DNA from: Zingiber officinale
Taxonomy: Eukaryota; Streptophyta; Magnoliopsida; Zingiberales; Zingiberaceae
Reading direction: 5' to 3'
DNA: 64,000 bases
NCBI RefSeq assembly: GCF_018446385.1
Contig: NC_055987.1
Span: 4,175,705-4,239,704 of the forward strand
The position numbers were made by a program, and so were the translations under genes. Below, piece by piece: positions 2,731 through 61,277 of the stretch. The notes beneath the pieces are model-generated. The model did no database searches and was not told where the DNA came from. It was given only the letters and a program-made list of their open reading frames with translations. Position 1 is the stretch's first letter; every line of letters starts with the position of its first letter.

Positions 2731-3617
2731 TTCTTACTACCGGATCAAAAACTATATAAAGATATTAAATTAAAAAATTATACTCATTTAATTGTGGAAA
2801 GAATAGTAAATTTGTATTGAAATTGATGTAATATACATGGAGCCATGTAATTATACGTGGAGAGAATTATAAAAAAAAATCACTTAAAGTTTTAATTATT
2901 GAGAATGTTTCAATGAATTTTTATAATATTGATGTGACATATTAAAATTTTAAAAAAAAATTATTTAAAACTTTAACAATTGAAGATGAGCCAACACCAA
3001 CTTCTTATTATAACATGATAACGCATTAAAAAAACAGATGAAATTTCAAAAAGCAAAGTGAACATTTTTTTACTAACATTAATTTTTCTAATCAAACCGG
3101 AATATTTTTTTCTCTCTCCCTTCTTTCAATTTTAGATCTAAAGCGTCGGGCTTCGACCTCTACGCTCGGCTCGGATAGGCACGTGACAATGATATTTTTT
3201 TTCGCGCGTTTTCATTTCAGTGGAAGCTGACTCAGCCAGGATTAATTAAAAATATTCAATTATGTAGCTTTTAACCCTTCAATAAGCATTAATAAAAAAT
3301 ATTTATTTTATATAATTATAAAGATAAATATTTAATTTGTCTAACAGTTTGTTTGCTTGCTTTAAACCAAGCATTTTGATGATAATGAAAACAAAAGGAC
3401 GTCATTTTAAGATGTTGGATTAATTAAAAATTGTCCTCTCACTGTGGTGCATAGAAGAGTATCAGGTTATAATCTAGATACAAACAGTTAATTATGTTAT
3501 ACTTGACTTTGGTTTTTTAAATAGGACGCGTAATTTAGGATACTGGTCTTCTAAAATACCTATTACAAGAGCTTCCTGATTCATTTTGATGGCCGATTAA
3601 AAATTTCTATAAGATTA
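2731..3617. other. AT-rich gene-free DNA containing a copy of the NLR upstream flank
   Basis: No gene was found. About 3140-3300 resembles the DNA upstream of the NLR at 24880-25290: both have a CTTCG..CCTC..TACGCT stretch, then a CACGTG G-box (3180-3185 here), then CAGTGGAAGCTGACT (3218-3232 here, 25238-25252 there) followed by AGxCAxGATTAA. This is the expected position for the promoter of a further NLR copy whose body would lie to the left, where the gypsy element now is. Confidence 0.6.
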
Positions 3618-4334
3618 AGGGGCATTTGGTATGCGCATGGAAATGAGAATCGGAATGAGAATCATTATATTGTGGAATGGGAATGGGTATGAGCATGGAT
3701 ATCACTCTTAAAAGCAATGTTTGATTAGTTGTATACTTTTTATCGGAATAAATCAATATTTCCTTTTTTACCCTTAAAGGAAAATAAGAGAAAAAAATTA
3801 GATGTGAGAGAAAGATGAATGTGAGAGAAAAATATGATGAAAGAGAATGATGAGAGAGGAAATGTGATGAGAAAGAATGAAGTGAGAGAAAGTGTGATGA
3901 GAGAAAATGAGAAAAGAGAGTGTGATAGAAGAGAGCATGATGAGAGATAAAATATGATGTGAGAGAAATTATGATGGGAGAGGATGAAGAGATAGAAAAT
4001 GTAATGAGAAAAAATGAGGGGAGAGAGAGTGTGTGATGATAGAGATTGAGGAGAGAGAAAGTATGATGAGAGAGAAAGTGTGATGAGAAAAAAAGAGAAC
4101 AGTGAGTGTGATGGGAGAGATGATGAGAGAGAAAGTATGATGAGAGAGAAAGTATGTTGAGGAAAAAAAAAGAGGGAGTGTGACAAGAGAGATTGACGAG
4201 AGAGAAAGTGTGATGAGAGCGAAAGTGTGATGAAAAAAAAAAGAGAAAAGAGAGTGTGATGAGAGATTGAGGAGAGAGAAAATATGAAGAGAGAAAGTAT
4301 GATTCCCATTCCCATGCTCATACCAAACGCCCCC
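3618..4334. mobile_element. MITE with TTA target duplication and purine-rich core (copy 1)
   Basis: Ends are GGGGCATTTGGTATG on the left and CATACCAAACGCCCCC on the right, flanked by TTA at 3615-3617 and 4335-4337. Three-base TTA duplications and G-rich termini fit the PIF/Harbinger-derived MITE group. The interior from about 3800 to 4290 is a degenerate minisatellite of GAGAGAAAGTRTGATGA-type units, almost pure purine on the plus strand. It closely matches the longer copy at 17029-18220 over the first 250 bp but lacks that copy's 3' unique part, so it is a deletion derivative. Long open frames on the minus strand here are low-complexity artefacts. Confidence 0.85.
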
Positions 4335-4401
4335 TTAGTTCTTATATGTTCGTGTACCTGGCTTGATTATATTCATGTCCTCAAATACCCTTGGTTGCGA
4401 G

Positions 4402-7400
4402 TAGGCCCAGCCGAGAGGTCGGGCGGTCCTAGGCGTCTGCCCAGGGCCCAATGTTTTTTGGGGGGGGGCCCAAATTTTATAGATAAGTATATGTATATAT
4501 ATTCATTTATTTAGGAATTAGGTTAAGTTTTACTTTGCTTTTCATCCGCTGGCTGCTGCTCCACGAAATTCATTGTCGGTTGTTGCTCCTTTGGTGAAAT
4601 CGCCCCATTCTGCACCTCTCTCACCTCTGCCGCTCTGCGTCTCCTACTCTCCTTCACCTACGCCGGCCAGCAGCTGCTGCTCGCCTGCTCCTCTCCTCTG
4701 GCGAATCGCTTCGCTAGACTGCACGGCTTACGACTACACCTCTCTCACCTCTACGTCTCTCACCTCTGCCTGTGACTTCCTGTCTCCGTTGAGGCGCCGC
4801 TTCACCTTCGCGACCACGTCACCGCGAGGTTGTGGCGTTGCGCCGTGCGCGGCTGTGCCAGTGCTACTTCAGTCCTTTGCCTCTGCCCTACACGGCTGCT
4901 CCACTCTGTTGCGACTTGCGAGCCGACGATTGCACCATCTACAGATCTATTCATCTTCAACTCTTCGTCTGTAACTGCAAGTGCAAGATTGCAAGTCTAC
5001 AAACTGTACACGGTGTTGTACTAGGATTTTTTGTTAATTAGGTAATTGTTCATAGAATAGTAATTTTTTGTTAATTAATTAATTGTAAATTTGGAATTTA
5101 ATGTTGACTTAATTGTTAAATTAATAAACAGGTGTTTTACTACAGTCTACCGTGTTCGAGGTGAGGTGCATAAGCTGCTAAGTGCTAAGCTTATAAATAA
5201 TTTCAATCCAGGTGCTATTATTCCTTTTATACTCAGACTAAGTTGATTTAAATTATAGCTTTTTAATTGTGATTTTGTGAATTATAATATGTTGCCTAAA
5301 AAACATATTTCTGGATGTGAAAAAAAAAAGAAAAAGACTAGAACAGTTAACTGAATCACAAAGATGTGCTCTTAATAAATTTTTTGTTAAAAGTACAAGT
5401 TCTAATGAAAATATAGAAATTTTAAATAGGGATAATATAGATGAGTCTAAGGAAATACATGATGTTAGCGAGGAGTCTAAGGAAATTCATGATGTTAATG
5501 ATGAATTTAATGAAACTCATGATGTTAATGATGAATCTAATGAAATTCATGATGTTAATGAAGATATAGATAATTTAGGAGAGCATGAAAATGTTACTAA
5601 TATAGTAGATAATGAGAAAAATAATATTGATAAACAATTTATTCCTCCACTTGATATATATGACCCAAGAAATTGTGATAATCTTGATAACAATGCACGT
5701 GATATTTTAGTTGAACAGGGGTCTATAAGAGAAATAAATCTCACATTTCCTTTTGATCACTACTCTAGACAATTTTCAAGTACTTATTATTTTAAAAAGT
5801 TAAGTAATGGAGAGGAAAGAGACCGAAAGTGGTTGGTATTCAGTAAACATGTTGATAAAGTTTATTGCTTTTGTTGTAAGATATTTAAATCTGAAAACAA
5901 TAGAAGTTCTTTAGCGAATGATGAGTTTGGAGATTGGAAACATATCAGTGAACGACTTAAATAACATGAAAATTCTATTGAACATATAACTAATATGAAC
6001 TCTTGGAAGGAATTAAAAATGAGACTAGAAAAAAATCTACAACGAGAAATCTCTAAAGAAAGAGAGCGTTGGAGACAAGTTCTTACAAGAATATTAGCAA
6101 TTGTAAAATGTCTTTCTAAACGTTGTTTGACTTTTCGAGGATCTAATGAGAAACTATGCCAAGAAAGTAATGGAAACATTTTAGGGTTGATTGAAATGAT
6201 TGCTGAAGTTGACGTTGTGATGCAAGATCATATTAGACACATTCAAAATAATGAAATTCATCATCATTATCTTGGTCATAAAATTCAAAATGAGTTGATT
6301 CTCTTTTAGCCGATAATGTTAGAAGTATTATCATTAAGAAAATTAAGGAGACAAAATATTTTTCAATAATTCTTGATTGCATCAAGACAAATGACTTTCA
6401 TAGTATGATGTGTTAATATGTCATCTAGCAATGTGAAAATAGAAGAGTATTTTTTAGAGTTTCTAAAAGTTAATGATACATCTAGTTTTGGACTTTTTAA
6501 TGAATTAAAAAATATATTAAAATCACTTGATCTTAGTATTGAAAATATTAGAGGTCAAGGTTATGATAATGGTTCTAATATGAAAGGAAACACCAATGAT
6601 TTCAAAAGAGGTTGATTGAAATAAACCCAAGAGTGTTATACATGTCATGTGTTTGTCATAATCTTAATTTGACTCTTAGTGATATGACACATTCTTTGTT
6701 AAAACTGTTTCTTTTTTTGGAGTAGTTCAACGCATATATACATTATTTTCAAGTTCTCCTAAAAGATGAAAATTTTTACTTGATAATGTGAAAGGATTAA
6801 CTGCCAAATCTTTTTCAAATACACGTTGGGAAAGGCGTATTAAAAGTGTTTAAGCTATTAGGTTTCAAGCTCTTGAAGTGCAAAGTGCTTTATTAGAGTT
6901 ATATGACATTTGTGATGATGCAAAGTCTAAGAGTGAAGCTGAAAGTATAGTTAACTCAATTGAAAGTTTTGAATTTTTACTTGGTATGATTATTTGGTAT
7001 GATATTTTATTTGCTATAAACATGATAAGTAAGAAGTTACAATCAAAATCTATGTGCATTGATTCTGCTATGAAACAATTAGATGGTGTAATATAATATT
7101 TCGAAAAATATATGAATGATGATTTTGCAACAAGTTTGACTATTGCTAAAAGTCTTGCATCTGATATGAATATACCAATATTTTCAACGAAACGTCGTAT
7201 TTTTAGAAAAAAAATAATTTGATGAGAAAGAAAATGATGAAATTTCACTATCACATGAAGAATCTTTTAGAATTGATTATTTTGTGATTATTGTAGACAT
7301 GGTAATTTTTTCTTTGAAAAGTAGATTTGATGAAATGAAAATATTTGAAAATATATTTGATTTTTTGTTTGATTCGAAAACATTAAAATCATTGGATAAT

Positions 7401-7891
7401 GATGAGTTGAGAAAATGTTGTGTTAATCTGACATCCACTTTTATGCATGATAATTCATTAGATGTTGAGTTAGATGATTTGTTTACAGAATTAAAAATAC
7501 TACAACTAACTTTACCAAATGAGATAATGTCGGCAGTTGATATTCTTAATTTTGTAAAAAATATAGATTGTTATCCAAATGTTGCAATTGCTTATAGAAT
7601 ATTGTTGACTATGCCTATTACCGTAGGATCAGCTGAAAGAAGTTTCTCAAAATTAAAATTACTGAAAACATACATAAGATCAACGATGTTGCAAGAGTGG
7701 TTGAATGAATTAACAATTTTATCTATTGAATAAGAGATTTTAAAAAAATCTTGAAATTAATAATATTATAGATGATTTTGCATCTAGAAAAGTTAGAAGA
7801 AGTCATTATAAATAAATTTTACTTTATTAAAAAAATTAGGGCCTATTTTATCGTTTTGCCCAGGGCCTCCTGAATGTTAGGACCGGGGCTG
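4402..7891 (+). mobile_element. hAT transposon, decayed (TTF zinc finger/DUF4371 group)
   Basis: The 8-bp target duplication GTTGCGAG occurs at 4394-4401 and 7892-7899. The element ends in CCGGGGCTG on the right and begins TAGGCCCAGCC on the left, so the terminal inverted repeats are degenerate. A GC-rich leader (about 4530-5000) precedes a transposase reading frame that starts near 5289. With the element removed, the flanks join into sequence that aligns with 59665-59940, which shows the empty site. Size 3490 bp is typical of an autonomous hAT, but several frame changes make it inactive. Confidence 0.85.
5289..7735 (+). pseudogene. hAT transposase remnant (ZMYM1-like, DUF4371)
   Basis: Likely start is ATG 5289 ([12 protein letters not shown]), with a frame slip in the A-run at about 5320-5336; the downstream frame reads [21 protein letters not shown]. 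An acidic repeat (ESxEIHDVND, about four times, 5443-5565) follows, then a TTF-type zinc finger around 5750-5940 ([22 protein letters not shown]). DUF4371 pieces occur at 5995-6330 and 6418-6615 ([13 protein letters not shown]). The C-terminal hAT dimerisation segment is at 7590-7733 (MPITVGSAERSFSKLKLLK). In-frame stops near 5964, 6309, 6615, 6855 and 7096 and frame changes break it. The family cuts and pastes DNA in the nucleus. Confidence 0.85.
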
Positions 7892-8189
7892 GTTGCGAGT
7901 CTAATATTTTTATAAGGGTTAAAAATATTAGATATGACATAAATTCTTCGGTTGAAAATATTTTTTAATTTTAAAAATTGATCAAATTTTAAAAATCCCT
8001 TGGTTAAAAATCCTTATAAATATATCGGAATTAAACCATGAGTATCTTGATAATAACTACTATCTTTCCACTATCTCATGGCCCTTAGAGCAACTCAAAA
8101 GTTTATAACTAGCTCATACTGTATATATAGGCAACCAAAATTTCTAATGCAATCAATCTCACACTTGCAAGAACAGTTCAACACGAAAC
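7892..8189. other. NLR-cluster downstream segment (left copy)
   Basis: Non-coding DNA which, with 4338-4393, aligns with 57870-57960 and 59665-59940. Shared words include GTTAAAAATATTAGATATGA and GAGCAACTCAAAAGTTTAT (8088 here, 59846 there), and CAACCAAAATTTCTAATGCA. At the right copy this segment lies about 850 bp downstream of an NLR 3' fragment in the same orientation. So here it is the former downstream flank of the NLR at 21035-24571, pushed 13 kb away by the CACTA and other insertions. Confidence 0.8.
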
Positions 8190-8759: not shown

Positions 8760-8768
8760 TTTAATGGG

Positions 8769-9109: not shown

Positions 9110-9352
9110 TGTTCAGAAAATCCTTTCATATTGGGCAAAAGGTGATAATGCTCGACTTCAGCGTCCCCGTCGTACCTTGTCCAAGATTATCACGAGGGAG
9201 GTTAATCACGGTAACCAGAGAAGTTAGTGCGTAGTGGGAAGAGAGGCACGGGAACTAGGGATTGATGCCCTAACTACCCCGCGATTCGAACCCATGATCT
9301 CATTGGGTAATTTTCTACGCACTAACCACTCCGGATAACCCCGTGGGACCAG
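9110..9352 (-). mobile_element. tRNA-derived SINE, copy 1
   Basis: Read on the minus strand from about 9352, it has an A-box-like word GGAGTGGTTAGTGCG (near 9335-9320) and a B box GGTTCGAATCG (near 9290-9280). The body then contains GACGGGGACGCTGAAG and ends ..GAAAGGATTTTCTG. Pol III internal promoter boxes at this spacing define a tRNA-derived plant SINE. It has no coding capacity and depends on LINE machinery. Right next to it is a second, divergent member. Confidence 0.75.
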
Positions 9353-9590
9353 AAAATCCTTCCATATGTGACAAAAGACAATTCACTCGCCCCCAGCGTC
9401 CCTAGGCCAACATAGAGAAGGTAAATCACGGATGACTACTAGTCATTAGTGCAAATGGCCAAGACATGAGGGAGGTGATGCTGTCACGCCGAGTTTCGAC
9501 CCCAAGACCTCATGTGACAACATCTCATGTCTTAATAACCATTGCACCGCATGAGGGGACAAAAGTCTTCCATATGTATTGATGGATGGA
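9353..9590 (-). mobile_element. tRNA-derived SINE, copy 2
   Basis: On the minus strand it begins near 9590 with CCCCTCATGCGGTGCAATGG, an A-box region, followed by a B-box-like GGGGTCGAAACTC (near 9505-9493). The 3' body GGGACGCTGGGGGCGAG and tail GGAAGGATTTTCTG resemble copy 1. The pair abut head to tail, so one probably inserted into the tail of the other. Confidence 0.7.
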
Positions 9591-11354
9591 TGATCTCCGT
9601 TAATTACTCTAACCTTGTGCCCTCGGTTAATTGCTCGAACACACTGCCTCCAAAAGCCCCCTCCGACCTCCGTGAAAACTCATCCCCGCAAAACCCCGCT
9701 CTGCGAAAACTCCTCTCCGCCACTTCTCCGCGCCTGCCGCGAAACTCCCACTGCCTCCGAAACTCCACGAAAAACCCATCTCCGCCACTTCTCCGTGCCG
9801 GCCGTGACCTAACCTCCTCCGCCACTCCTCCGTGCCGCCAGTGACCTAACTTCCTCCGCCACTGCTCCACGCCATTTTCCAGTGCTTCACTCCCATCGCC
9901 ATTGAACACTGACGACTCTTTCTCCATTACAAAGCTACCCTCCTTCCTTCGAGGTTCTCTCTCTTACATTCACTCTCTCACTCTATTGTGTGAATTTCTT
10001 GGAGATTCTTTTCCTCCTTATGTTAAGGTTGGTTTGATGTGGAAATCAAAGTTTTTTTTTTTTTTGATATTTGGATTTTTTTTTTTTCGATTCTTGGCTA
10101 TTGGATATGTTTTACAATGCCACTATCTGGGGATTTATGATCACTTGTTAGCAAGATCGCTTTGATATCTGTAATGTGCACCCATTATATCAGTCGTGAT
10201 GCATAAATCTTGTATTGTTATGGTTCTTGTTCTTGGAAACTTGAATTAAAGCCCAAAGAGGCCTCTTTCTAGTTTGCATTAGTTAACTCGAATGTTCCTG
10301 CTTACATGCATCATTGGTACAAGTCATTGTCATAGTTTTAGGTTTTTGAAGATCTTTGATTTCTACGGAGGGTCTAGATTCAAGATTATGCTTAGTAAAT
10401 TACATTGTGGATTTTTATTGTGAAAATGTTGATAGGCGATCTTTAGCTTTTTTAGAATAATAGCCTAACAATCTATTCTTCTTTCTAATCTGGCATAATT
10501 GTACTATTTCTGGTGGTTATGCAGTTCTTGAGTCTTATAAGCACTTGATTGCTGATTATATTACTCCTTAACTAAAGACAACATAAATTTTCAATACAGC
10601 TCGTCTTATTTGGAATTTTTGTTTTTACTAGTAAAATGATATGGAACACGTTTTGCCATCTTTATGCATCTAGGAATACTCTGTTTTGTTTTTTCCTTAA
10701 GACTTGTTTATGGAATAGCTCAGCTTTTGTATTTATCTAGGTTCCGTGACAAATGGATATTCCAATAAGCTGGCTGGTGTACACTTATCATATTGCATCC
10801 TTATAATGAACACTATGGTAGATTTGCAAGTTAAAACAAAGATGAATTCTGATGTATTTTGGATAATTACATTATCAGTTTGATCTACAAGGTCAATGGG
10901 ATTGAAAATTTGTTTAAGCTACATGAATGTCAGATAACTCTACAATAGTGATGTAATTAAATTCTCTATAAAATAAAAGGAAATGGGGTAATGAAAGGGA
11001 CATGGAAGTGTTGCAGATGATCTTGTTGTTCTGCTTCCTGGAATGCTGAAATGAACCGTATTACTAAGTACAATGGCAGAAGTATTCCAATAGCTCTCAG
11101 CAGAAACACTTGTGGCACATACATGCTTAATAATTTATCTTTCAATTGCTTAACCATTGGTAAAAAGTTGCTTAAGGTTTTTGCTATTTTCTCCCTTATT
11201 TACTTGTTTTTGCTTGAAGATTGATTGTACAGCTTTAAACAATCCTATTTTTAATTGTTTCTTGTTTGTTGTGTTAAGATCTTGTTGTATAATGTACAAT
11301 TGTTTTGAAGATAGGTGTTGGCTCATTTCTAGCTGATTAGTACTTGTAATAAAA
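9591..11354 (+). other. CACTA leader, GC-rich first exon and probable intron
   Basis: 9640-9900 is C-rich with repeats of CTCCGCCACTTCTCCG, then 9900-10165 is pyrimidine-rich, then 10165-11354 is T-rich intron-like DNA up to the TnpD start codon at 11355. Open frames at 9542-9844 and 9902-10165 show no domain. A GC-rich leader in the corresponding place is also present in the CACTA at 40385-45200 (44520-44900, opposite strand). Reading it as a 5' leader is an inference. Confidence 0.45.
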
Positions 11355-14300
11355 ATGGACAAAGAATGGATGCCAAAAGATAGACTATCATATGAATATA
11401 ATATTGGAGTAGAGTCTTTCTTGCAATTGACATTGGAAAATGCTGATAATCGTAATGCAATACCTTGCCCATGTATAAGATGTGGTAATATAAAGAAAAA
11501 TGTTGAAACTATAAGAGCGCATTTATATTGTAATGGTATAGATTTGACATATTATACATGGATATGGTATAGGGAAAGATCTATGATAGGGAACTCAATT
11601 AATGGTAATGATCAAGTAGGGTAAGATGAACACTATCTTTTGCTGAGACCCCTATAGATATGGTGCAAACTGCATATGATAGTTATACTAAGAATCCAAG
11701 CCAAGTCAATAAGCTACTTAAAGATGTTGAGAAAAGTTTATATCCTGCATGTACAAAATTCATAAAATTATCTACAATTGTGAAATTATTTAACTTGAAG
11801 GCAAATATAGTTGAGTGATAAAAGTTTCACCGATCTACTTAGTTTGTTTGGAGAAATGATTCCAGATGACAATGAATTACCTTTATCTTTGTATGACACA
11901 AAGAAAAGTTTACAACATTGTATCTTATACCGGAAGGAGCATAAAGATTTTGTTAATTGCCCTATTTACGGAACATCAAGGTGGAAGTTGAGAAACAAAT
12001 CTAAGGTAAAAGGAGTTCCTGCAAATGTCTTGTGGTATTTCCCACCTATTTTAAGATTTCAAAGAATCTTTCAGAATAAGATGATATCCAAGGAATTAAC
12101 TTGGCATGCTGATAAAAGAATTCGTGATGGATACTTATGTCATCCAAGTGATGCACCTTCTTGGAAATTGTTTGATCGCATGTGGCCAGATTTTGCTTCT
12201 GAGCTAAGAAATCTGAGATTGACTATATCAACAGATGGGATCAATCCTCATAGTTTGATGAGTTTTGCATATAGTTGTTGCTCACTTTTAATGATCACAT
12301 TCAATCTTTTACCATGGTTGTGTATGAAGAGAAAATTTGTTATGCTTACTTTGTTGATATCTAGCCCTAGACAATCGGGAAATGATATTGATGTTTACTT
12401 AGCACCTCTTATTGATGACTTAAAATGCTTATGGGATAAAGGTGTTGAAGAATATGATGCATATCAAGAAGAACATTTTGCTATGGGCAATTAATGATTT
12501 TCTTGCATATGAGAAATGTTAGGATGTATTGTAAAGGGATATCATGCATGTCCTAATTGTGCAGAAAAAACTTATTCGACAAGGTTGACACATTGTAGAA
12601 AAATGTCATATACAGGTCATAGAAGGTTTCTACTTTTAAGTCATTCTTATCAAGGGCAAAAGAAGGCATTTAATAGGAATCAAGAGTTTAATCTTACACC
12701 AAATCCATTGAGTGACCATGAAGTTTTGGAAAGAGTTGAAAGGATTAATTATCATTTGGGGAAAATTAGCGGAAAACTACAATCAAAGAGGAATGATGAA
12801 GAAACATGTCGAAAAAAGAAATCAATATTCTTTGAACTCAAGTATTGGAAAGACATACATGTTCAACATATTCTTGATGTGATGCACATCGAAAAAAAAA
12901 TCTGTGAAAGTCTCATGGTACGTTACTTGACATTCCAGGAAAAACAAAGGATGGGGTCATAGCAAGATTAGATCTTATGAAAATTAATTTAAGGATTGAA
13001 TTGGCGCCCAGGATTGGGGAGAAGAGAATGTTTCTACTAGTTGCCTATTGCACTCTAAGTAAAGATGAGAAAAGAAGTATTTGCAATTCTTTATCGGGAA
13101 TAAAGGTCCCTGAAGGTTACTCATCTAATATTAAAAACCTTGTGTCGATGAAGGATTTGAAACTTGTTGGCCTTAAGTCACATGACTACCATTTTTAATG
13201 CAGCAATTACTTCAGTGGCCATTCGCAGTGTCTTGCCAAAACATGTTAGAGATACTATCACTCAATTGTGTTTCTTTTTCAATGTGTTATATAGTAAAGT
13301 AATATACGTCTTAAAGTTGAATGACTTGCAAAGAGAGACTGTGATGATATTATGTTTGCTTGAAAAGTATTTCTCTTTTCATTTTTGATATAATGATTCA
13401 TTTAACTGTTCATCTTGTGTGAGAGGTAAAATTGTGTGGACCCATTTGATATAGACACATGTACCCATTTGAAAGATATATGAAGATTTTGAAAGGTTAT
13501 GTGCGCAATCACGATCAGCCTGAAGGGTGTTTAACCAAATGTTATATTGCTGAAGAGGTTATAGAATTTTGCTCAGATTATCTGTTCAATGTTCACACAA
13601 TTGGGATACTACCAAGGCATCGCGAAGTAGAACGTACTAAGCCTTTATCGGGAGCAATAGTGCACTTCGCTGGTCATGATGAGTTGCAGCAAACACATCG
13701 TTACGTTTTGGCAAATGATGATGAGATTGATCCTTATATCGGGTAAGATCTCCAACTTATCAATACTTTCATGCCACTTGAATACATTCTATTGGTTTAT
13801 TTATTTAAAATATTTCCATTAGGACACACATGGTGGTGTTGAAATTTCCTCATAAAGCTAAGTCCAAAAAGTGGTTACAAGATGATCATAACCGAACATT
13901 CAGTAGCTGGTTGCATGATATTGTATGTTCCAAAAGTACTTGGTATTAGCATATATACAACTCTTGCTATCTTATGCAAAATATAAATATTATTATATTA
14001 TTAAATATAGGTTGAACGTGTAGTTCACCATTCCACCTTTCAAATATCTGAAAGATTGAAGTGGATAGCCCGTAGACTTAGCAAGAAAGTGTTAGAATAT
14101 TCTAGTTATTTGATTGATGGGATTACTTATGCTATGAAAGAACGTGATAATGTACGAGTTGCTCAAAACTTTAAAGTAAGCTTAGTCGCAAAGGCAATAC
14201 AAGTTGCCAGTGCAAACGATAAAAATTCAATTGTGTCTGACATGATTTTTATGGAGTTATTGAAGAAATACGATCACTCGATTACTAGGAATTTAAAATT

Positions 14301-37634: not shown

Positions 37635-37636
37635 CA

Positions 37637-44875: not shown

Positions 44876-44944
44876 GAGAGTGAAACCTAAGGGTACTTGA
44901 TCCAACGGTTTGTATTATCTCAGATTTAGATGAGAGCTTAACAA

Positions 44945-48900: not shown

Positions 48901-49371
48901 TATTCTACAAATATAATGAGGAATTTTCAATATTTTTTCTAATTTATGTGGATGCTATATTAATAACTGGTAGTGATCAAAACAACATTATTACTTTACT
49001 ACATCTTCTCTGTCAAGAGTTTCATATTCGGGATCTTAGCAATGCTCATTTTTCCTTAGTATAGAGTTTCTCTCACATTGTGAAGGTTGTCTTCTCTCTC
49101 AGATCAAATACATTACTGGACTCCTACAACGAGCTAAAATGGATGGTGCACGCTCTATCTCCACACCAATCATTGAGGATGGTTTCACTGCACCTTCATC
49201 CTTATCTTCGATGTCTGCCCCCCAGATCTACCGTAGTATTGTTGGTGCCCTATAATATATCACAATTACACAACTAGATATTGCTTTCGCTCTGAATCGC
49301 GTCTGTCAATTTATGCATGCTCCTATTAAACATCATTGGGAATGTGTTAAGAGATTCTTCGATATCTCAAA

Positions 49372-51776
49372 TGTTGGAGTGTATACTGAAAGCCTAAGAT
49401 TTTGTAAACATTTATGTTAAATAAAGAATCACATTTGGTCAATTTATCTACATTTGTTTGTAGTTGTTCAATTAATTTATATTGTAGATAACATAGTATG
49501 TGGTGTCACATATAGAAGATGATGTTATCTGTACCTTATAAATTATAAACAGTAGCTCACGACCAAAATGGAAAGGAACAAACCATTGGAAGGTCGTAGT
49601 GTAATTAGGAATTAGTTTATCTTGACTATATAATTACACTAGTACACTTAGAGTGTATTGAGTAGGACCATTTGAGGTTGTCTCTTTTATACTGACTTTA
49701 TAAAGGAACAAATACCTCAGTTATTATGGAAGTATGTGCTCTTAATCCTAATATAATAACAAGCACATATATTTGATATTTATTTCTTTAATTTATCAAT
49801 GGGTGAGATTTAGTTCGATGAATCAATAAACCCGATAAGTTGGGAAATGATATCATTTATAGTGTGTGTTGTTGATTATAGAAGGAAACTGTGTCTTAGA
49901 GATACTAGGTTGATAATGTCCTCAAGAGGAGCTCATAAGGATTGTCATGTTAAACCCTGCAGGTGGACTTAGTCCGACATGACGATAAGGTTGAGTGGTA
50001 CTACTCTTGGACTAAGATATTAATTAAATGAGTTGTCAGTAACTCACTTAATTAGTGGGCATTCGATATCTTAAACACAGGGAAACTAACACACTCATAA
50101 TAAGAAGGAGCCCAAAAATGTAATTTGGGATTGGTGCGGTAGTTCAATAATAGTTCTCTAGTGGAATGAATTATTATTGATAAAATTAAGTTGTGTATTC
50201 GGGGCGAACACGGGATGCTTAATTTTATCGGGAGACCAAAACCAATTCCTCCTCTCGGTCCCTATCGTAGCCTCTTATTTATAGAGTACTATACCCACCT
50301 ATACCCACTTTCTATACCCACCTAATAGGGGTCGGCCAAGCTATCTTGGGAACCAAGCTAGGGCCGACCTAAGCATAAATTGGTGTGGCCGGCCCTAGCT
50401 TGAACCCAAGCTAGAGGAGCCGGCCATATTAAATTAAAAAGGATTTTAATTTTAATTTTTATTATGTGGAAGATATAATTTATTAAAGAGAATTAAAATT
50501 AAAATATCTCTCTTGTAAAAGATCTACAAAAGATTAAAGAAAGAGATTAGATCTCTTTCCTTATTTGTAGATTGGTGAGATATTTTATTTTCTTTTTAAA
50601 AATTATTCACATGTTGTTAAATTAAAATTATAGAAATATTTTTTATCAACCATGAAGAGATTTTTGAAGAGAAATTTTATTTTTAAAATTTCCGGAAACA
50701 AATTAGGAAGTTTTAATTTGTTGATTAAAACTTGTCTAATTTATTTCTTTTGATGTGGCCGGCCAATATTGTTTTAATTGGAATTTTATTTTATTTTTCT
50801 CAATTAAATCATGTCAAGGAAATTAAGGAAATTTTATTGTAATTAAATTTCCTAATTTGCCAAGGCCAAGGAATATAAAAGAAGGGGTGGGGGTGCCTTC
50901 ATGGGTGACAACCTCTATTATTTCTCTCCCTCTTTTGTTCCTTGGTGTGGCCGGCCATCATCATCTTCTCCCTCTCTTCCTCTTGTGGTGGCCGAACCTC
51001 TCTCTCCCCTTGGAGCTCTTGTGGTGGCCGGATACTACTTGGAGAAGAAGAAGGAGAGAAAGCTAGCATCTCTTGGAGCTTGGTTGGTGTTTTGATCTTC
51101 TTCCTTGGTGAAGCTTCCTCTTTGTGGCCGAACCTAGCTAGGAGGAGAAGAAGGTGGTTGGTGGTTTCTCATCTCGGAAGATCGTTGCCCACACAACGTC
51201 CGAGGTTTGAAGAGGAATACGGTAGAAGATCTAGAGGTCTTTCTAGAAGGTATAACTAGCAATTTTTCCTTTCCGCATCATACTAGTTATTTATGGAAAT
51301 AATACCAAATACAAGAGGCTTACGATTCTAGTATTTCGAATATGTTTTTCGATGTTGTATTCTTTTGTTTTATTTTTCCTTGTGATTTGATTGTTCTTTT
51401 CGGTTAACCTAAAGTTATTTAGGAAAATTAAATATTAGCTTTCCATAAAAGGTTTTGTCTAGTCGGTGGTGGTTGCTCCCATATCCAAGAAGGTCGTGTG
51501 CCTCGCCACGTTAGTACTGGGAACCAATTATGGAAATTAATATTTAATGGAATTAATAACTTAAGGTGATTTGGGTCGAACGTGTTAAGTTCCGCAGGAG
51601 ACCCAAGTCAAAACCTAAAAGAACGAATAAATTAAGTTTTGGATCAAACGTGTTAAGTTCCGCAGGCGATCCAAAATTTAATTTAAAAGAACACATGGTA
51701 GCTAGGAAAAGGTTCAGACCTTTATACAAAATTTTTGTATAGTGGAACCTCTAGGTTTTCCGAGTAGCAACCAACA
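49372..51776 (+). repeat. Solo LTR, 2405 bp, nested in copia element 3
   Basis: Begins TGTTGGAGTGTATACTGAAA and ends GTAGCAACCAACA, with a perfect 5-bp target duplication TCAAA at 49367-49371 and 51777-51781. Inside are a TATA-like AATATAAAAGA (about 50871), several GTGGCCGGCC words (50390-51020), and two copies of GTGTTAAGTTCCGCAGG about 75 bp apart (near 51580 and 51646). No gag or pol is present, as expected after LTR-LTR recombination of a long-LTR element. Small open frames at 50857-51259 are leader-like, not genes. Confidence 0.9.
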
Positions 51777-52313
51777 TCAAAGACACTATTCTACATGGTC
51801 TTCTTTTATATCGTCAGTCTTCACGAGAGTTGATTGCATACAGTGATGCAAATTGGGCTGGATCTCCTGAAGATAGACGTTCTACTAGTGGATATGCTAT
51901 ATTTCTTGGGCAAAATCTTATTTCCTGGCTTTTAAAGAAGCAACCTACAGTCTCTCGCTCGAGTACTGAAGTTGAATATAAAGCTATCGCTAACACAACG
52001 TCAGAAATTATTTGACTACAATCTCTTCTTTCAGAATTACACTTTTTCCCAACTGCTACGCCTAAAATATGGTGTGATAATATTGGAGCAACTTATCTTA
52101 CGGTAAATCCTTTTTTTCATGCTCGTACCAAGCATGCAGAGATTGATTTTCATTTTGTTTGCGAGCGTATGGCGACTCGACAACTTTCGATTTCTTATAT
52201 CTCTACGGAAGATCAAATTGCTGATATATTTACTAAGCTATTATCTAGACAACGTTTCACCAAGTTAGCACTCAAACTCAACGTTCAGGCACTCCCGTTG
52301 AGTTTGTCGGGGG

Positions 52314-52553
52314 TAATCATAATAATGGAAATAATTTCTAATTGATTTCAATCAATTAAGATTTATTATATTTGGCACACAATCACCATTATTAATTCAA
52401 ATAGGAAAAATAATATTTCTAAATCTATTATGTTACTATGTTTTATTTAATTTTTTTTATTATTATTTTAAATAATTTGTATAAATAAGTCTATTAATTT
52501 TAGTAATAAAATTATCAAAAAAAAAAACTTTATGTTCTTTATTGATTTCAACA
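52314..52553 (+). repeat. 3' LTR of copia element 3
   Basis: 240 bp, starting TAATCATAATAATGG after a short G-run polypurine tract and ending TTTCAACA. It is poorer in G and C than the 5' LTR. Confidence 0.85.
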
Positions 52554-52558: not shown

Positions 52559-52854
52559 GATCTATCTAAACCATTAAATTCATTAATCTCTCTTGTATTC
52601 TTTTTGCCGTCTCAATTTTATAAGCAGAAGTTTATCTGGACCATTAAATTTATCAATCTTTAATTCATTTTTTGCCTTTTCTTAGTGTCATTTTTTCAGC
52701 TTTTTTATTTGTAGAAGCTGGATAAATAAGAGTTAATTAAAAATCTCCCTTTGGACTCCAGAGGCGGCCCAGATTCGCCGGCTAGCGTGCGCTGCGGCGG
52801 GTCGCACCGTTGACTAGACTCCACCGTGTCGCCACGGGTAACGTTGGACAATAA
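52559..52854. other. NLR upstream flank, third copy, right half, then a GC-rich stretch
   Basis: 52559-52745 continues the alignment with 25410-25600 (ATTAATCTCTCTTG.ATTC, TTTTTGCCGTCTCA). 52746-52854 is GC-rich (GATTCGCCGGCTAGCGTGCG) without recognised content and forms the landing site of the Harbinger element. Confidence 0.75.
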
Positions 52855-52859
52855 GGCTA

Positions 52860-53687
52860 TGTTTACATGAGAGGGCGGAATAAAAATTAGGGAAAGTTTT
52901 TCACGGTGGAAAACTTTTCACTGTTTACTTTATTAAATTTTTGGAAGGAAAAGGAAACATAATCTATCAGTGGTTGAATTTGAAACAAAAAATCATTACT
53001 GTCAAATCGGGCGGAAACCCAAGGATGGAAAACCAAAAGACGCATGTACCCTCTCTTCTTGACAAAATTACACACTGTATACGTGACTCTTCATTTCTTT
53101 TTCCCATCTTGTTTTCTCCGTCCGAAGAAGCAGCGTCCGTCACCGACTCACCTATCTACGGCAACTTCTTCGATCTTTCGTCGGCAACGTTTCTGTCTTT
53201 CCTCGGCAACTTATAGCAGCATCTTGTTTTTCCTCGGCAGTCTTTTGTCTTCCCTCGGCAACGTGACTGCATCCTCCTCTGTTCTTTCTGTGACGTTCTG
53301 CGATACTGGTAACATGCTTCCCCTTCTTAGCTTTTTGTTTGATTTCTTACAACAGCCATCGTTCTTCATCCATCTAGCCAACAAATGTCACCTTTTTTTT
53401 TTTTTTGGCCACATCGTCCTTCTTCGTCATGTTCGGCGACAAATACTTTTTTGAGTTATATTGAAAAAGCTTGCACATATTTTCGATTTACCAAAAGTGC
53501 CAGCATTCCTTTATAACACGTGAGATAAGGTTCATTAAAAAAAAAAAAAAATCTGATTCATCGATGGTGTCAAATTCAGTAAAGGAAGAGTTTTTAAATT
53601 TCTAATAAGGTGTCTTTAATTTTTATTTTACAATAATTTAGTACTTTGATTTTTTTTTACAGTAACCTATAGTATTATTATTATCCT
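52860..53687 (+). other. Harbinger 5' leader
   Basis: Between the left terminal repeat and the transposase. 53040-53460 is pyrimidine-rich with repeated TTCCTCGGCAAC words (about four times, 53195-53262). Open frames here (53044-53454 and others) have no domain and are regarded as leader. Confidence 0.5.
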
Positions 53688-55088
53688 ATGTACAGGTTTA
53701 ATAAGATGGAGTGGGATAATGGTGAAGAAGATGATCAAAATATTGATGATTATTATGATGAGCATGATGATAGTTCGGATCAAAGTTCGGATGATGAAGT
53801 TTTTATAAACAGGAATTGTGTACTTGGTTTTTGGATGGTTTTGAAGGATATGAGAAAATATGTACATAAAGGTTTGATGGAGAGTAATGAGCAAAAAGAT
53901 AATGTTCGACGTGTTTTGTTGCACAATCTTATGACTTCTAGCGATGCATGCCATAGCATTCTTAGGGTGAATTTAGCTGGTTTTAGGCGCTTGTGTGAAA
54001 TATTAAAGCACAACAATAGGGTAAAAGGCAATAGGAATTCAAGTGTTGAAGAAAAGGTTGCTAAATTTTTATATTTGCTCGGTCATGATGTCAAAAATAG
54101 AGAATTGAGTTTTTTCTTTCGTCGTAGTACAAGGACTACTAGTAATCACTTTCATGAAGTCTTGAAAGCCATTATTAGCCTTCATGCTGAATTTATAAAG
54201 CAACCAGATGGATCTGAAATTCCTCCTCATATAGAGAGTAGCAACAGATTCTATCCTTACTTTAAGGTATTTTTTTTTATCATTTTGAACTTCAGAAGTT
54301 TTGTAATATATTTTGTAGCCACATATGTCGATTGTCTCTTAATTGCAGGATTGTGTAGGTGCATTAGATGGAACTCATATACGTGTTAAGGTATCTGATG
54401 TAGATGCACCTCAATATAGAGGAAGAAAGGATTGGCCAACTACCAATGTGTTGGCTGGATGCTCCTTTGATTTGAAGTTCACATATGTTCTAGCCGGATG
54501 GGAAGGAACTGCCTCTGATTCTCGAATCATAAAAAATGCTCTATCTAAACGTGATAAATTGATAATTCCTCATGGTATATAGTTTACAATTAATGTTTAT
54601 TAGTAGACAATATTTGAAAGTAAATATGACTAACTTATATCTTTGATTTGGTGGTAGGTAAATATTATTTAGTTGACTCTGGGTTTATGTTGAAGAGAGA
54701 CTTGATTACCCCTTATCGAGGAATTCGTTATCACTTGAAAGAATATTCGAGATGTGACCCTACAAATGCAAAAGAGTTATTCAATCTTCGACATGCAACT
54801 CTTCGCGGTGCAATCGAGAGAGCTTTTGGGGTTTTAAAAAAGAGATTTCCAATTATTGCTAGTGGAACAGAGCCTTATTATGAAGTTGATATTCGTACCG
54901 ATATTATCTTAGCATGTTGTATTCTTCATAATTTTTTAATGGGGGTGGATCCAGATGAGAGATTAATTAATGAAGTGGATCATGAATTGAGTGCAACTTC
55001 TAACAATGAAGCAAGTCACAATGAAAGACAAGACGATGACTGGAGGCAAGGAAGCATGGTTAGAGATAACATAGCTAATGCTATGTAG
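53688..55088 (+). CDS. PIF/Harbinger DDE transposase (DDE_Tnp_4), three exons
   Basis: Exons 53688-54266, 54349-54574 and 54658-55088, all with GT..AG introns, give 411 residues. The acidic N-terminus (DDQNIDDYYDEHDDSSDQSS) is followed by a helix-turn-helix-like region (EEKVAKFLYLLGHDVKNREL, near residue 120-140). The DDE catalytic residues are all present: D200 in CVGALDGTHI, D250 in WEGTASDSRI and E322 in LRGAIERAFGVLKKRFP. The family excises DNA and inserts it at TTA/TAA, matching the TAA flanks here. The start may instead be the next Met (53706), as TGTACAG just upstream could be a splice acceptor. No disabling change was seen. Confidence 0.92.
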
Positions 55089-55424
55089 TTAGATTACAAT
55101 ATTAACTAAAGAAGGGTTATTTCGATTTATTAGAAAATTATCAAAAGAATCATGATGTTATGATGTAATATATTGATTATGAGTCATTTTTATTTTACTT
55201 CTTATATGCTAGTAATGTTTGATTCGAACAATGTAATGGATTGAATATGTTTTTTTGATAACTCTTAAGGTTAGATGTTGATCTATTGGATTTTATTTTA
55301 TTTTTATACCTGTAATTTGCTTGTCAAACCAATATTATTATACTTGAATGTTTACAATTGTGAATAAGATTTGATTTTTTTTTTCCATGTTCATGTGTGC
55401 ATTTGATGTAGGTCTTGATTAAGA

Positions 55425-56652
55425 ATGGATACACCAATTGAACAAGTGAAGAGAGATGTGATTAAGTGGATGGAAGAGATGGATAGAATTTTCATAGATG
55501 CTATGTTAGAACAACAAGTTAATGGTAACCGAATAGGTGGCACTTTCACATCTACTGCGTACAAAGATATGGTTGTCATTTGTAGTGAAAAGATTGAAAT
55601 CCCATTGACGAAGGATAATTTGAAGAACAGAATTAAAACATTAAAAAGTCATTTCAATTCATGTTATGATTTGTTTAAGAATGCAAGTGGAGTTCAATGG
55701 CATGCTGAAAGTAGAAGATTTGAGGCCGAGGAGGCGGTTTGGAAGCAACTTATTGATGTAAATATTAATTCATTTTTAGTCAATCATTGTATTTCTAAAT
55801 ATGTTTAAAAAATTGTCTAGATTAATCCATTAATCAATTATTTTCATTTCTTTTCTTCTAAATATTTTGGTCAAACTATTTCACTTTTGACAATGTCCTG
55901 ATACATTATCTACATTACTTTTGACAAGTTCATTTTGCTTGTAGATGACACCAGATATGTATGACATGCATCTATATATTCTATAAAAAGTATTATGTAT
56001 GGCATGCATCTGTTTTTTGCTTCCTCTGTTTCATGGATTCACCTACCAACTTGATTGATTTGCTTCACTCGGACCAACCATAAATGTAGTTATCATTGTA
56101 TTTCTAATTATGTTTAAATTTGTCTAGGCTAATCCATCAATCAAGAAGTGGAGATATACCCCGGTACCTCATTATGAGAAGCTGTTAGAGTTGTTTGCTC
56201 ACGATAGGGCAAATGGTCAAAGAGCTTCTATTGCTGCAGAAAGAAATGTTGAAATTATTTTAGAGGAAGAACAAAGAGATCTTGGATTAGATGATGAACA
56301 TGAGACTTTCGAAGTGATCCCTGATAGTCCACCATTTGACGATCGATCAAGGAAGAGAAAGCTTGCATCTATTGATTCATATGGCAGTAAGAAAAATTCA
56401 GTCATCGACATTCATGTCAAGGAAGTTGTTACTGCAATTGATCGTTCAACTTCAGTGATTGAAAATAGGTCATTTCGCCAACAAAATGTGAATGAGAAAC
56501 TCTACAAAGCTCTAGTTTGTGCTGGTGTTCCAGATAAAAATATACTTGCTGCGTATCTATTTCTAGGAGAGAACAAGGAGAAGATGATGCTTTTCATGGG
56601 ATGCCCACCAGAGAAGAGGTTGGAATTTCTAAAAATGATATTCTCTTTCTGA
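55425..56652 (+). CDS. Harbinger Myb/SANT-like protein (Myb_DNA-bind_3), two exons
   Basis: Exons 55425-55757 and 56128-56652 (donor GAT|GTAAAT, acceptor TTTGTCTAG|GCT) give 285 residues. The N-terminal trihelix-type Myb/SANT domain shows FIDAMLEQQVNGNRIGGTFT and KTLKSHFNSCYDLFKNASGV. After the junction, ANPSIKKWRYTPVPHYEKL matches the family's conserved continuation. The C-terminal part (EKLYKALVCAGVPDKNILAA, FLKMIFSF) is typical of the plant L10-interacting Myb-like proteins. In PIF/Ping-type elements this second protein helps the transposase reach the nucleus and bind the ends. The partner transposase lies directly upstream. Confidence 0.9.
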
Positions 56653-57349: not shown

Positions 57350-57352
57350 TAA

Positions 57353-57864: not shown

Positions 57865-59940
57865 TTATAGTTTTTATAAGGGTTAAAAATATTAGATATG
57901 ACATAAATTTATCAGTCGAAAACATTTTTAAATTTCAAAAATTGATCACATTTTGAAAAATTAGTAGAAGACACTCTATCCACTTCAGTTTTCCCCTCCT
58001 AACTTTTTAGTGTGCAATTTGCTTGGCAATTCATTTCTGTGATAGTATTTGGATACTAATTCATTTTATGAACAACTAGTGTTTAGTTGTTATCATGGTG
58101 TTGTTATCCTATCTTAGGAAACAAACTTTTAATGTAATCTCGACACAGGCCTTAGCAAAACTTAGTCTAAAACAGGCCTTAGCAAAACTTAGTCTAGATT
58201 CTTACTCGGGCTTAGCTCAATCGACACTTGGACTTGATGCCTACTCGAATCACTCAACAGTCGGGGCACTTGACGACTTGGCAGTTTGCTCGGCATTCAA
58301 TCAACTCCGGCCACTCAATGGTTGGGGCACTTGGGGTGCTCGGCCTCCTGCACTCATCCTCGGACCTTGAGTGCTTGGCACTCAATGTGTCTAGTCTTGA
58401 CACTCATCCTCAGACCTTAGGTGCTTGACACTCAGGGTGCTCATAATAGTTCTCATAAAATCTAAGCCGTATGAATTCTAGACAACCGAAATAAGAATTC
58501 GAATAGGAAAAACATGAACATATAAGCATGGATCTTGGTTTCATCGAGAACATGACATAAGAAAATAAACACATAAACATAATAAACAAAGAACCTGATT
58601 GAAGAGTCATATCCTTGTCTTTAGTGTCGTTAGCTTGATCTCTATGGAAGAAGATGCAGCAGAAAAGAATGTCTTTCAAGAAACTTAGGAGATGATGGCG
58701 CTGTAAAGTTTTTTTGTCAATGGGGAATAATAAACTACATTAAGATGATTCTATAAGCTCTTGAGAATCAATCATATATATAGTGGACATTTATTATCAA
58801 CCCATAGATAATAATAGATGTGGAACTATAGATCCCTATATATGGTGAACATCTATTATCAGCATATAGATGATAATAGATGCGAGACTAAAGGTTCTAT
58901 ACATACAAGGTCTACATCCAACAAACGAATAAGCCTAAGTTAGATCACTTTAAAGGGTTCAAATCATATTCACATATGCAACTTACAAATAAGCTCACCT
59001 AATAGGGATAATTATATCTAACAGCTCGACCTTCAGCATTTGTCATGCAGATCCTAATAATATTGCCCTGCTAGCTTGAGGAAGACTGCCCTGTTGGCCG
59101 GAGAATTACTACCTTGCTGGCATGAGGAATATTGCCCTGCCGGCCTTCAGTACGAGGTAAACTCGGTTATCATCATCAATATATTGAGAGTAGTACTTTT
59201 TTGAAAATGAATTAAAATTTTCAAACACATCCATTTTTAAAAAATCACTGTTCTTAATGTATTGAGTCAAATTGAATTTTGAGAACATGCATATAATCAG
59301 GAAAACTAACTAAACATATAAGAACTAGTTTCATGTCAATCCGAAATCGTTTAGTTCATCAACCAATTTTACTTAAAATCGATTTTGAAAAAAAAAAGTA
59401 AATCGATCGACTGATTTTAAAAAAATCAGTCAACGGATTTGTTAAAAATTTAGACGTTCAAAAAATTTTAAAAACATTTGTGTTCAAAATATTATTGCTC
59501 TTAATATATTGGGTCAAATTAATGTTTGAGAGCATAAATATAATTAGGAAAAGTAGACGAACACATAAGAACTAGTTTCATGTCAATCCAAGATCATGTG
59601 GTCTATCAGTCGATTTTGGACAAAATTGATCGATGGATCAAATAACCTCGGATTGGCATAAAACTAATTTTAATGTGTTTGTGTACCTCCCTGATTATAT
59701 TCATACCCTCAAGTCAAAAATATTTTTGAATTTCAAAAATTAATTAAATTTTAAAAAATTTGTATAAATATATCATAGTTAGGAATTGAATTGTGAATGT
59801 CTGTATGATAACTAGGTACCCTTTTATTGTACCATATCTCTATGAGAGCAACTCAAAAGTTTATCACTAGCTCATACTGTATATATATGCAACCAAAATT
59901 TCTAATGCAATCAATCTCACACTTACAGGAACATTTCAAT
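57865..59940. other. NLR-cluster downstream segment (right copy) interrupted by repeats
   Basis: 57870-57960 aligns with 7905-7995, and 59718-59940 with 7955-8189. The two pieces overlap in content, so the block between (57961-59717) is an insertion or local duplication. That block contains a 26-bp tandem repeat (CAGGCCTTAGCAAAACTTAG, 58146 and 58173), repeats of CTTGGCACTCAATG/CTTGACACTCAGGG type (58365-58440), a roughly 62-bp duplication with ATAGATxATAATAGATG (58785-58905) and a TGCCCTGC.GGC repeat (59065-59145). These look LTR-like, but no coding region was found. Confidence 0.6.
59240..59715. repeat. Direct and inverted repeat block (ACTAGTTTCATGTCAATCC family)
   Basis: TTGAGAGCATAAATATAATT..ACTAGTTTCATGTCAATCCAAG (59531-59603) has a direct relative at 59278-59346 and an inverted relative at 59643-59714 (CGGATTGGCATAAAACTAAT..AATATATTCATACCCTCAA-type). 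The arms of the inverted pair are about 70 bp, with about 40 bp between. Confidence 0.6.
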
Positions 59941-60784
59941 GCACAAAACTTCATGCGGATCTGAGAAAGGACCTATTATTCACACTGAGATATATAGATA
60001 TGTGGATTTGTTATGCTGGGCGCTTTCCATGCGCGCTCAACATGCGCACCTAGGAGGCCACCCGCTTCGACAAGGGGACGCCCCTTTACGCGCGCAAGCT
60101 GGGGGCACCCAGCCTAGCATGTCTCTAAAGATATATGTGTTATATAAATTTACGATGCAACCAAAATTCTTATTTCAAAAAATATTCAATATATTGAAAC
60201 AATGAATATTACAAAGAAGCTATTATTCTTTAAATATCTTTATTTTTTATTTTTTTTATAAACAGTAAGTGAATATCTATCACAAAGTCTAGGAGTTATA
60301 AATTAAGTATAAGTAGAAAATAAATTCTACATTTAAATATAAAAAGCCACAAATTCTATAATAATAGTTATAGAATATTCAAATGTTAAAATGACACATA
60401 AATATCATAATATTTATTTAGCAAGTTTGTGAAAATTAAAGAAATGTACACATGACACGTTAAATAAATTTTGTTCCCAGAGTAAGTGATTCTAAAGACA
60501 CTATATATCTTCATAAGAACATATCGTGAAGTTATCACATGAATATTATTATCAACAAACTTCAATAGATGCTTTTACTGCTTGTCTTATGCATAGTATG
60601 CCCATGAAGAATCAGATCCTTGTTGTGATAATTAATTGAGCCGTTCAGGTTCTCATTTCAATTCCAACCTTGCCTTCATGAGTAATCATGCGAATTACAT
60701 GCAATACAAGAGACAAATAAAGAATGATCAGCAATGTAAGTAATGCTAATTATCAAAGATCTAAAAAAAATTGTATGGCAAAGA
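59941..60784. other. Non-coding DNA downstream of the NLR fragment
   Basis: Mostly AT-rich. A 115-bp GC-rich island at 60015-60130 has CATGCGCGCTCAACATGCGC and an imperfect inverted end pair GCTGGGCGC / GCACCCAGCCTAGC. No gene. Confidence 0.4.
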
Positions 60785-61277
60785 AAAGTTGATGAATCGT
60801 ATATATACACGTGAAAAGAGAAACTATGATTCTTTTATTGTGAAGATTAGCTAAAAATACGATAGGAGGAATGCAAAATAAAAGCTCTCTATACATGAAA
60901 ATAACATACATCAAGGGTACTTACTCTCCTATTATATCTATCCGCGAAGAACTTTTTTGATTGCTCCCATAGCGTCGGATGAACATCGCCTAAGCAATGG
61001 AAAAAATCTAATGACTTGGGAAGCCCCGCCTCGGGCATCGCTTGAATCTGTGGACAATTCCATACACGTAGTGTTTTGAGAAAGGGAGAAAGTCCTATCT
61101 ATCTCTGGCAGCGATTGGAGCTGTGGACAGTTGTCTATTTGTAATTCTTCTAGGAAAGGAAAGCTATGCAACAACTCTGTCGGCAGAGATTGTAGTTTAT
61201 CGCAATAACAAAACCTTAGATATTGTAACAGCAGGGAGCTAGGCTTCGCACCAATATGACCACCTCAAATATCCTCA
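60785..61277 (-). pseudogene. NLR 3' fragment (last LRRs and 3'UTR), truncated
   Basis: Aligns with the 3' end and 3'UTR of the complete NLR (20930-21410). Minus-strand words LLHSFP.LE, CPQLQSLPEI and CPQIQAMPE match the last LRRs. A 4-bp duplication in TATCTATCTATCTC near 61094-61107 shifts the frame, so the copy is dead. The final codons differ as well, ending ..EQSKKF. The alignment ends abruptly at about 61277, where the chromovirus LTR begins. It belonged to a second cluster member with the same orientation as the intact gene. Confidence 0.9.

Follow-up and report, generated by a model that had tools for sequence, protein, structure and literature searches.

The 64,000-nt stretch of ginger (Zingiber officinale) DNA analyzed in this study (positions 4,175,705 to 4,239,704 of NC_055987.1; hereafter the window) contains one intact nucleotide-binding leucine-rich repeat (NLR) gene, gene B, together with recurring NLR flanks and a broken NLR end that are separated by transposons. 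An earlier reading of the window, made without database searches (the original prediction), had described these pieces as the skeleton of a dismantled tandem NLR cluster. The pieces can be assigned to four units, A to D, of a coiled-coil (CC) NLR family. They are listed here in window coordinates; elsewhere, loci are named by contig and position, with C2 being the contig that carries the window and C1 a second contig of the same assembly.

2748-3618, minus strand: distal upstream flank of unit A, 90-91% identical to the upstream flanks of C1:4395190 and C2:3990172
7893-8189, minus strand: downstream-flank block of unit B, with partners in unit D at 57867-57961 and 59717-59949
9265-21034, minus strand: rest of the unit B downstream region, with a Transposase_21 fragment (11811-12494) and a terminal-inverted-repeat element (17030-18220)
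21035-24571, minus strand: gene B, CC-NB-ARC-LRR, an intact single open frame of 1178 aa
24596-26308, minus strand: upstream flank of unit B, containing a dispersed insertion of about 153 bp (24967-25119)
45552-45718, minus strand: orphan upstream flank C, part 1, with 34 of 34 genome matches on C1/C2
52554-52746, minus strand: orphan upstream flank C, part 2, identified by self-blastn and joined to part 1 in many other copies
57867-60787, minus strand: downstream flank of unit D, interrupted at 57962-59664
60788-61273, minus strand: NLR 3' stub of unit D, the end of the leucine-rich repeats (LRR), 82% identical to 20946-21410 and matching residues 1070-1177 of gene B by tblastn

Gene B begins with an Rx_N domain (PF18052, 1.3e-14, residues 15-100), followed by an NB-ARC domain (PF00931, 1e-45) in which GIGGAGKT, LLVLDDVW, GSPLA and MHDL occur in that order, motifs that we take to be the P-loop, kinase-2, GLPL and MHD. 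It also contains WH_DRP (winged helix), LRR_R13L1-DRL21, LRR_14 and other domains, the LRR being C-terminal. Gene B would presumably encode a conventional intracellular immune receptor, in which NB-ARC serves as the switch and the LRR as the sensor. Its closest copies are C2:4015575 (98.4%) and C1:4462839 (97.6%), and counterparts of units A and B also stand in order on C1, 28 kb apart.

Comparison of the window with itself (self-blastn) yielded 21 off-diagonal matches at E<1e-5, every one of them direct; 20 dinucleotide-preserving shuffles of the window yielded none in any case. The paired blocks proposed originally were present, mostly within some tens of bases of where they had been placed. 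The upstream-flank pairs were 3207-3260/25227-25280 (85%, only 54 bp), 25274-25412/45571-45720 (75%) and 25406-25607/52554-52743 (81%); the downstream-flank pairs were 7907-7995/57871-57959 (90%) and 7955-8189/59717-59949 (78%); and the NLR 3' ends paired at 20946-21410/60800-61273 (82%). Two of the proposed blocks held in part. Only the later part of 24880-25600 was paired, with its first ~350 bp lacking a partner in the window, and 4338-4393 has a weak partner at 59665-59712 (80%, E=1.4e-4 in a comparison of two small regions) and also pairs, inverted, with 59278-59327 and 59525-59574.

Whole-genome searches covered the 3.09-Gb assembly, with matches scored from first-look candidates. All candidates were scored in the searches with 3140-3300, the NLR 3' block, the downstream block and 45552-45718. 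Candidates were scored in part for the NLR protein (39 of 1302), the B upstream flank (40 of 285), the NLR 5' end (40 of 63), the D flank (40 of 135), the C-to-D interval (40 of 425), the NLR body (40 of 100), a CC-domain piece (40 of 61) and one other search (40 of 2999); absences and orphan counts resting on the NLR 5'-end search are provisional. All 27 matches to 3140-3300 fell on C1/C2 (C2 3.09-4.52 Mb, C1 3.83-4.74 Mb), as did all 34 matches to 45552-45718 (30 within 3.0-5.1 Mb and four at 6.3-6.6 Mb), while 55 of 56 matches to the NLR 3' block and 11 of 12 to the downstream block were in the C1/C2 region. For the B upstream flank, 77 of 84 matches were in the cluster and the other seven all fell on the insertion at ~24967-25119 (40 of 285 candidates scored). 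Overall, cluster matches span 3.8-6.4 Mb on C1 and 3.1-6.6 Mb on C2. With 39 of 1302 candidates scored, the gene B protein gave 66 matches; 57 lie in this region, and nine, at 41-48% identity, were on C2 (0.86 Mb), C13 and C14. Because the scored block matches, three exceptions described below aside, are confined to one C1/C2 region beside CC-NB-ARC-LRR genes, the blocks are NLR flanks and not dispersed repeats. Taken together, we consider it about 90% probable that these blocks belong to four neighboring units (A-D) in one large tandem CC-NB-ARC-LRR (CNL) array, of which they represent broken ends and non-coding flanking sequence.

A further search result concerns a 180-bp piece of CC-domain coding sequence (24299-24478), which has 85-86% copies with identical ends, in both orientations, on C9 (four) and C17 (one) among the 40 of 61 candidates scored; these are possibly an NLR fragment moved by a transposon.

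In units A, B and C, transposons have broken flanks apart or shifted them. The elements inserted in or beside the units are the following.

1-2747, minus strand: right end of E1, a Ty3/gypsy-type long terminal repeat (LTR) retrotransposon, with one LTR at 1788-2747 and its partner at C2:4167045-4168004, left of the window
3616-4331, no strand assigned: terminal-inverted-repeat element with a low-complexity interior, where units A and B adjoin, with similar inverted ends and TTA on both sides
4403-7892, plus strand: hAT-type DNA transposon in the unit B downstream flank, with Dimer_Tnp_hAT at 7218-7733
45719-52553, plus strand: E2, an old degenerate Copia-type LTR retrotransposon splitting flank C, with LTR-like ends at 45719-45949 and 52314-52521 (79%)
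52853-56652 (approximate ends), plus strand: dispersed repeat and DDE_Tnp_4 transposase fragment between flanks C and D
61266-64000, minus strand: E3, a gypsy-type LTR element abutting the D stub, with an LTR-like repeat at 61266-61910 and its partner at C2:4247066-4247709 (93%)

E1 separates the distal flank of unit A from gene A, which lies 10 kb left of the window (C2:4162081-4165770) and is broken by a frameshift and stops. The original prediction had called 3140-3300 an upstream flank, and so it is: it represents a second, distal occurrence of an upstream motif belonging to unit A, the gene of which is not in the window. Its reading as a unit of its own was ruled out, as it is the unit A flank on the far side of E1. 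The element carries RVT_1 and RNase H domains in its portion left of the window and is bounded on both sides by the target duplication AAAAC; the corresponding site is contiguous, without E1, in C1 and in the second C2 copy. Its two 960-bp LTRs have 5 differences, which suggests an age of approximately 0.2 million years at a grass rate of 1.3e-8 substitutions per site per year, a rate that may not apply here.

In unit B, the hAT-type insert is bounded by an 8-bp duplication (TTGCGAGT, at 4395 and 7893), and C1 and the second C2 copy have the region of this element at 92-93% identity. The element at 17030-18220 has a TTA duplication and is missing from the C2 copy of unit B; it is related to the element at the A/B junction (self-match 3615-4303/17026-17687, 82%), and both have long low-complexity interiors giving long reading frames of doubtful meaning. 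The Transposase_21 fragment is presumably of CACTA type. As most of the unit B downstream region is collinear, at 91-99%, with C1:4443500-4466758 and C2:4000555-4019523, much of its transposable element load seems older than the duplication. Between gene B and flank C, a 641-aa open frame with DUF4371 (30024-31949) is, we assume, probably a hAT-like transposon derivative, and the DDE_Tnp_4 fragment further along is presumably of PIF/Harbinger type. No tRNA was found in a tRNA search run with the bacterial setting of the tool.

Flank C is divided by E2, which is bounded on both sides by the target duplication AAATA and contains an RVT_2 fragment (48457-48888), SH3_retrovirus (47684-48016) and a weak gag_pre-integrs match below its cut-off (46889-47497). 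The edges at 45718 and 52554 are contiguous in many other copies, confirming that the split flanks recognized earlier are real insertions. In unit D, the flank at 59665-60787 is 92-94% identical to C1:4549164-4551801, directly downstream of the NLR C1:4551888 (40 of 135 candidates scored). On C2 unit D is a 3' stub, while its C1 counterpart, C1:4551888, keeps a 1123-aa open reading frame (ORF). E3, next to the stub, has RVT_1, RT_RNaseH and Retrotrans_gag domains in the fetched sequence. The rest of gene D was not found on the far side of E3 in the fetched C2 sequence up to 4249704, and searches with the NLR body and 5' end had no match on C2 short of the 4284-kb gene (40 of 100 and 40 of 63 candidates scored, respectively), leaving the 3' end E as the only NLR match there. 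Within the downstream flank of D, 60266-60657 resembles a dispersed repeat at ~74-76%, with relatives on numerous contigs among the 40 of 135 candidates scored; an old element apparently predates the expansion of the array.

C1 and C2 each bear a two-armed CC-NB-ARC-LRR array, and the two arrays are parallel, with minus-strand genes in the right arm and almost exclusively plus-strand genes in the left. Counted over both contigs, the right arms are uniform in orientation (18 of 18 5' ends, 20 of 20 3' ends and 19 of 19 upstream flanks), and the left arms have the reverse one for 15 of 17 5' ends, 19 of 19 3' ends and 9 of 9 upstream flanks. The single orientation reported earlier is true of the right-hand arm and does not extend to the left arms. 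Six gene pairs are close between the contigs (99.5, 99.4, 99.0, 98.5, 98.3 and 97.6%), and because of these pairs and the parallel order we infer that C1 and C2 are two haplotypes of one locus. In the left arm, C2:3196884-3199793 and C2:3224168-3227077, 27 kb apart, are 100% identical over 2910 bp, reflecting either a very recent duplication or an assembly effect.

Genes and flanks do not share a single nearest relative along their length. From about nt 900, gene A is 98.7-100% identical to C1:4434511, whereas over its first 600 nt and in its proximal flank all units compared are at similar distances. Further out than approximately C2:4166300, the unit A flank is 96-100% identical to C1:4395190 and C2:3990172 and 40-47% identical to C1:4434511; it may be A or the C1:4434511 flank that was rearranged. 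C1:4551888 is 98% identical to gene B over its first 300 nt, while further along other units are its nearest relatives. Such mosaic patterns, seen here, in gene A and in the flank of gene A, hint at exchange between units. Flank sequence travels with this NLR family, and genes and flanks alike are mosaic in sequence identity.

Several observations weigh against the four-unit assignment or against the pairing of C1 and C2 as haplotypes. The coding end of unit D is only ~86% identical to its C1 counterpart though its flank reaches 94%, and no target duplication was recognized at E3. Two further nearest C1/C2 gene pairs are only 94.4-94.7% identical, which is not allele-like, and C1:4551888 and others have no close partner on the other contig. 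The remaining points concern unit C. A coding remnant of gene C was not found in 26300-45571, using blastn against the unit of gene B and tblastn, so that a lost unit C rests on ~350 bp of flank. Its position in the flank tree is weakly supported, several primary flanks (85-86%) are no closer to it than second copies are (83-85%), and second, distal flank copies exist at C2:4074917 and C2:4430568, so C could be a second copy of the flank of gene B, displaced over a long distance.

The alternative that follows from this last point, in which block C is a distal upstream copy belonging to gene B that transposons carried off and no unit was lost, is the strongest of those considered, although we regard it as unlikely. 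Two other genes have second copies, at distances of 2.5 and 3.8 kb upstream, and the C1 copy of gene B has weak upstream-motif matches 2.8 kb upstream; these, with the missing coding remnant and the weak placement in the tree, are what it has in its favor. However, flank C is closest (89-91%) to three primary flanks, those of C1:4434511, C2:4284406 and C1:4551888, with several other primary flanks at 85-88%, and is more distant from second-copy flanks (83-85%) and from the flank of gene B itself (83%). In addition, the two second-copy flanks form a separate, supported pair in the flank tree, and the genome search with 45552-45718 found no C-like block on C1 between the counterparts of B and D. 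Flank C is more probably the remnant of a separate unit.

A second alternative takes the original prediction in its strong form, with the whole cluster dead or dying. Losses are certainly frequent. The tally of orphans, which took in upstream flanks and 3' ends only, located an NLR 5' end on the expected side of 22 of 34 upstream flanks, no more than 5 kb away (within 0.8 kb for 17 of them), and none that near for the other 12. Nine of 40 3' clusters had no NLR 5' end within 9 kb, one of the nine being on C14, outside the cluster; the number becomes ten with 3' end E (C2:4281839), which was counted as an orphan by hand because the 5' end found at 5 kb is that of the neighboring gene. Seven fetched copies, gene A among them, have no ORF reaching 1120 aa, and in-frame stops occur in some of the longer copies. 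Nevertheless, ORFs of at least 1120 aa were present in 20 of the 27 fetched NLR copies (those with a large piece in the protein search and a fetched locus, smaller fragments having been excluded before counting), and four cross-contig pairs at 98.3-99.5% have such ORFs on both contigs. This length is a loose test, given in-frame stops relative to gene B in C2:4284406, C1:4675425 and C1:4076494 and frames ending elsewhere than that of B. Since 20 of 27 copies pass it, calling the cluster dismantled goes too far, and a dead cluster is very improbable; what stands of that description is that the window holds ordered, same-strand tandem NLR remnants separated by transposons. Likewise, gene B is the only full gene surviving inside the window, as predicted, but not beyond it, and of the at least three to four broken-up units that had been proposed, four are indeed touched, with B intact, the broken gene of A outside the window and only C and D left as remnants. 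The array as a whole is not a skeleton; it is the product of ordinary gene-family turnover with transposons wedged in.

In the same tally, the right-arm orphans comprise one of 19 upstream flanks (C) and two of 20 3' ends (D and E). As all three lie within C2:4.221-4.282 Mb (61 kb), corresponding to the right part of the window and the next 42 kb, this is the most worn stretch of that arm by the features tallied. Outside it, a fourth copy of the B-type downstream block (94%) at C1:4410616-4410932 lies between two A-type genes, has no neighboring gene of B type and no NLR 3' end within ~20 kb upstream, and is possibly another lost unit. The upstream motif also matches at C2:4083781, where no NLR 5' end is nearer than ~12 kb (40 of 63 candidates scored), and upstream-flank copies located beyond both arms (C1:4998216, C2:4802749, C1:6332004, C1:6407722, C2:6493125 and C2:6629637) have none within 5 kb.

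Even less probable than a dead cluster is the explanation that the paired blocks are parts of dispersed transposable elements lying near NLR genes by chance. Three exceptions to unit-specificity are of the kind that this explanation expects: the ~153-bp stretch 24967-25119, which is absent from the two closest copies of gene B and has at least seven matches outside the cluster, on C2, C8, C11, C12 and C19 (40 of 285 candidates scored); part of 60171-60657, in which the widespread relatives of 60266-60657 fall; and an 89-bp block with one further occurrence, on C8. The other block matches are in the C1/C2 NLR region, mostly at fixed distances from NLR ends, and hundreds of dispersed copies unlinked to NLRs were not found for the unit-specific blocks (27/27, 55/56, 11/12 and 34/34 on C1/C2). 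These exceptions aside, the dispersed-repeat explanation was rejected on the whole-genome matches. An assembly artefact of collapsed or chimeric tandem repeats, for which the identical left-arm pair at C2:3196884 and C2:3224168 could speak, is the least credible explanation, given the A-B unit order repeated on C1, insertions with clean target duplications, and divergences of 2-20% that are too large for assembly noise.

The coexistence of intact genes and pseudogenes and the clustering of related NLRs, mostly in one orientation per block, are those expected of tandem birth-and-death evolution. In such a history, units would arise by tandem duplication, trade segments through conversion or unequal crossing-over, and be lost to frameshifts, deletions or insertions, with transposons probably having widened the gaps between them. 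The transposons to which spacing and splits had been attributed are supported in that role by inserted elements with target duplications. They are insufficient for the missing bodies of C and D, which would additionally require deletion or unequal exchange in this haplotype. It is also conceivable, though improbable, that orphan flanks and 3' stubs persist as local donors or recombination anchors, with the C, D and E stretches serving as exchange points that reshuffle gene ends and let the NLR content of the haplotypes diverge.

The locus offers a readable case of NLR turnover, in which target duplications and uninterrupted sister sites allow insertions to be ordered and the same units can be followed on two contigs. 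If C1 and C2 are haplotypes, NLR D seems to keep its coding body on one of them only. The value of these findings is local, namely for the annotation of this cluster, together with the caution that a gene-poor, transposon-rich window of an NLR array need not mean a dead array.

Among known systems, the nearest solved structure to gene B by sequence is RPP13-like protein 4 (phmmer E=1.9e-60, residues 38-856), which we take to be ZAR1. ZAR1 has a CC-NB-ARC-LRR layout. The two proteins are distant, and the LRR region is longer in gene B.

At the level of the cluster, tandem birth-and-death with transposon insertion and haplotype differences is already well known. In cacao, NLR copy number rose by local duplication and was not explained by transposable element content (PMC12405883). 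In the common bean I cluster, tandemly arrayed NLRs vary in copy number and one is inactivated by a retrotransposon; the cluster differs from the ginger array in consisting of Toll/interleukin-1 receptor-type NLRs (TIR-NLRs) as opposed to CC-NLRs, and its insertion is recent and tied to loss of resistance (PMC13392006). The R-gene clusters of rice chromosome 11 show tandem NBS-LRR duplication and birth-and-death, with pseudogenes making up 26.3% and 33.3% in two cultivars, but they involve other genes and another plant, and accessions were compared there, versus two contigs of one assembly here (PMC6972905). A matching set of features is described for RGA08 of wild banana (Musa balbisiana), where two haplotypes of one genotype contain RGA genes and pseudogenes, duplicated intergenic sequence and many repeat insertions, and where unequal recombination and intragenic exchange are accompanied by gene content differing by haplotype (PMC3017797). 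Compared to RGA08, the ginger array is approximately ten times longer (1.4 Mb on C2 versus 131-152 kb) and is two-armed with opposite orientations, with units often tens of kb apart (PMC3017797).

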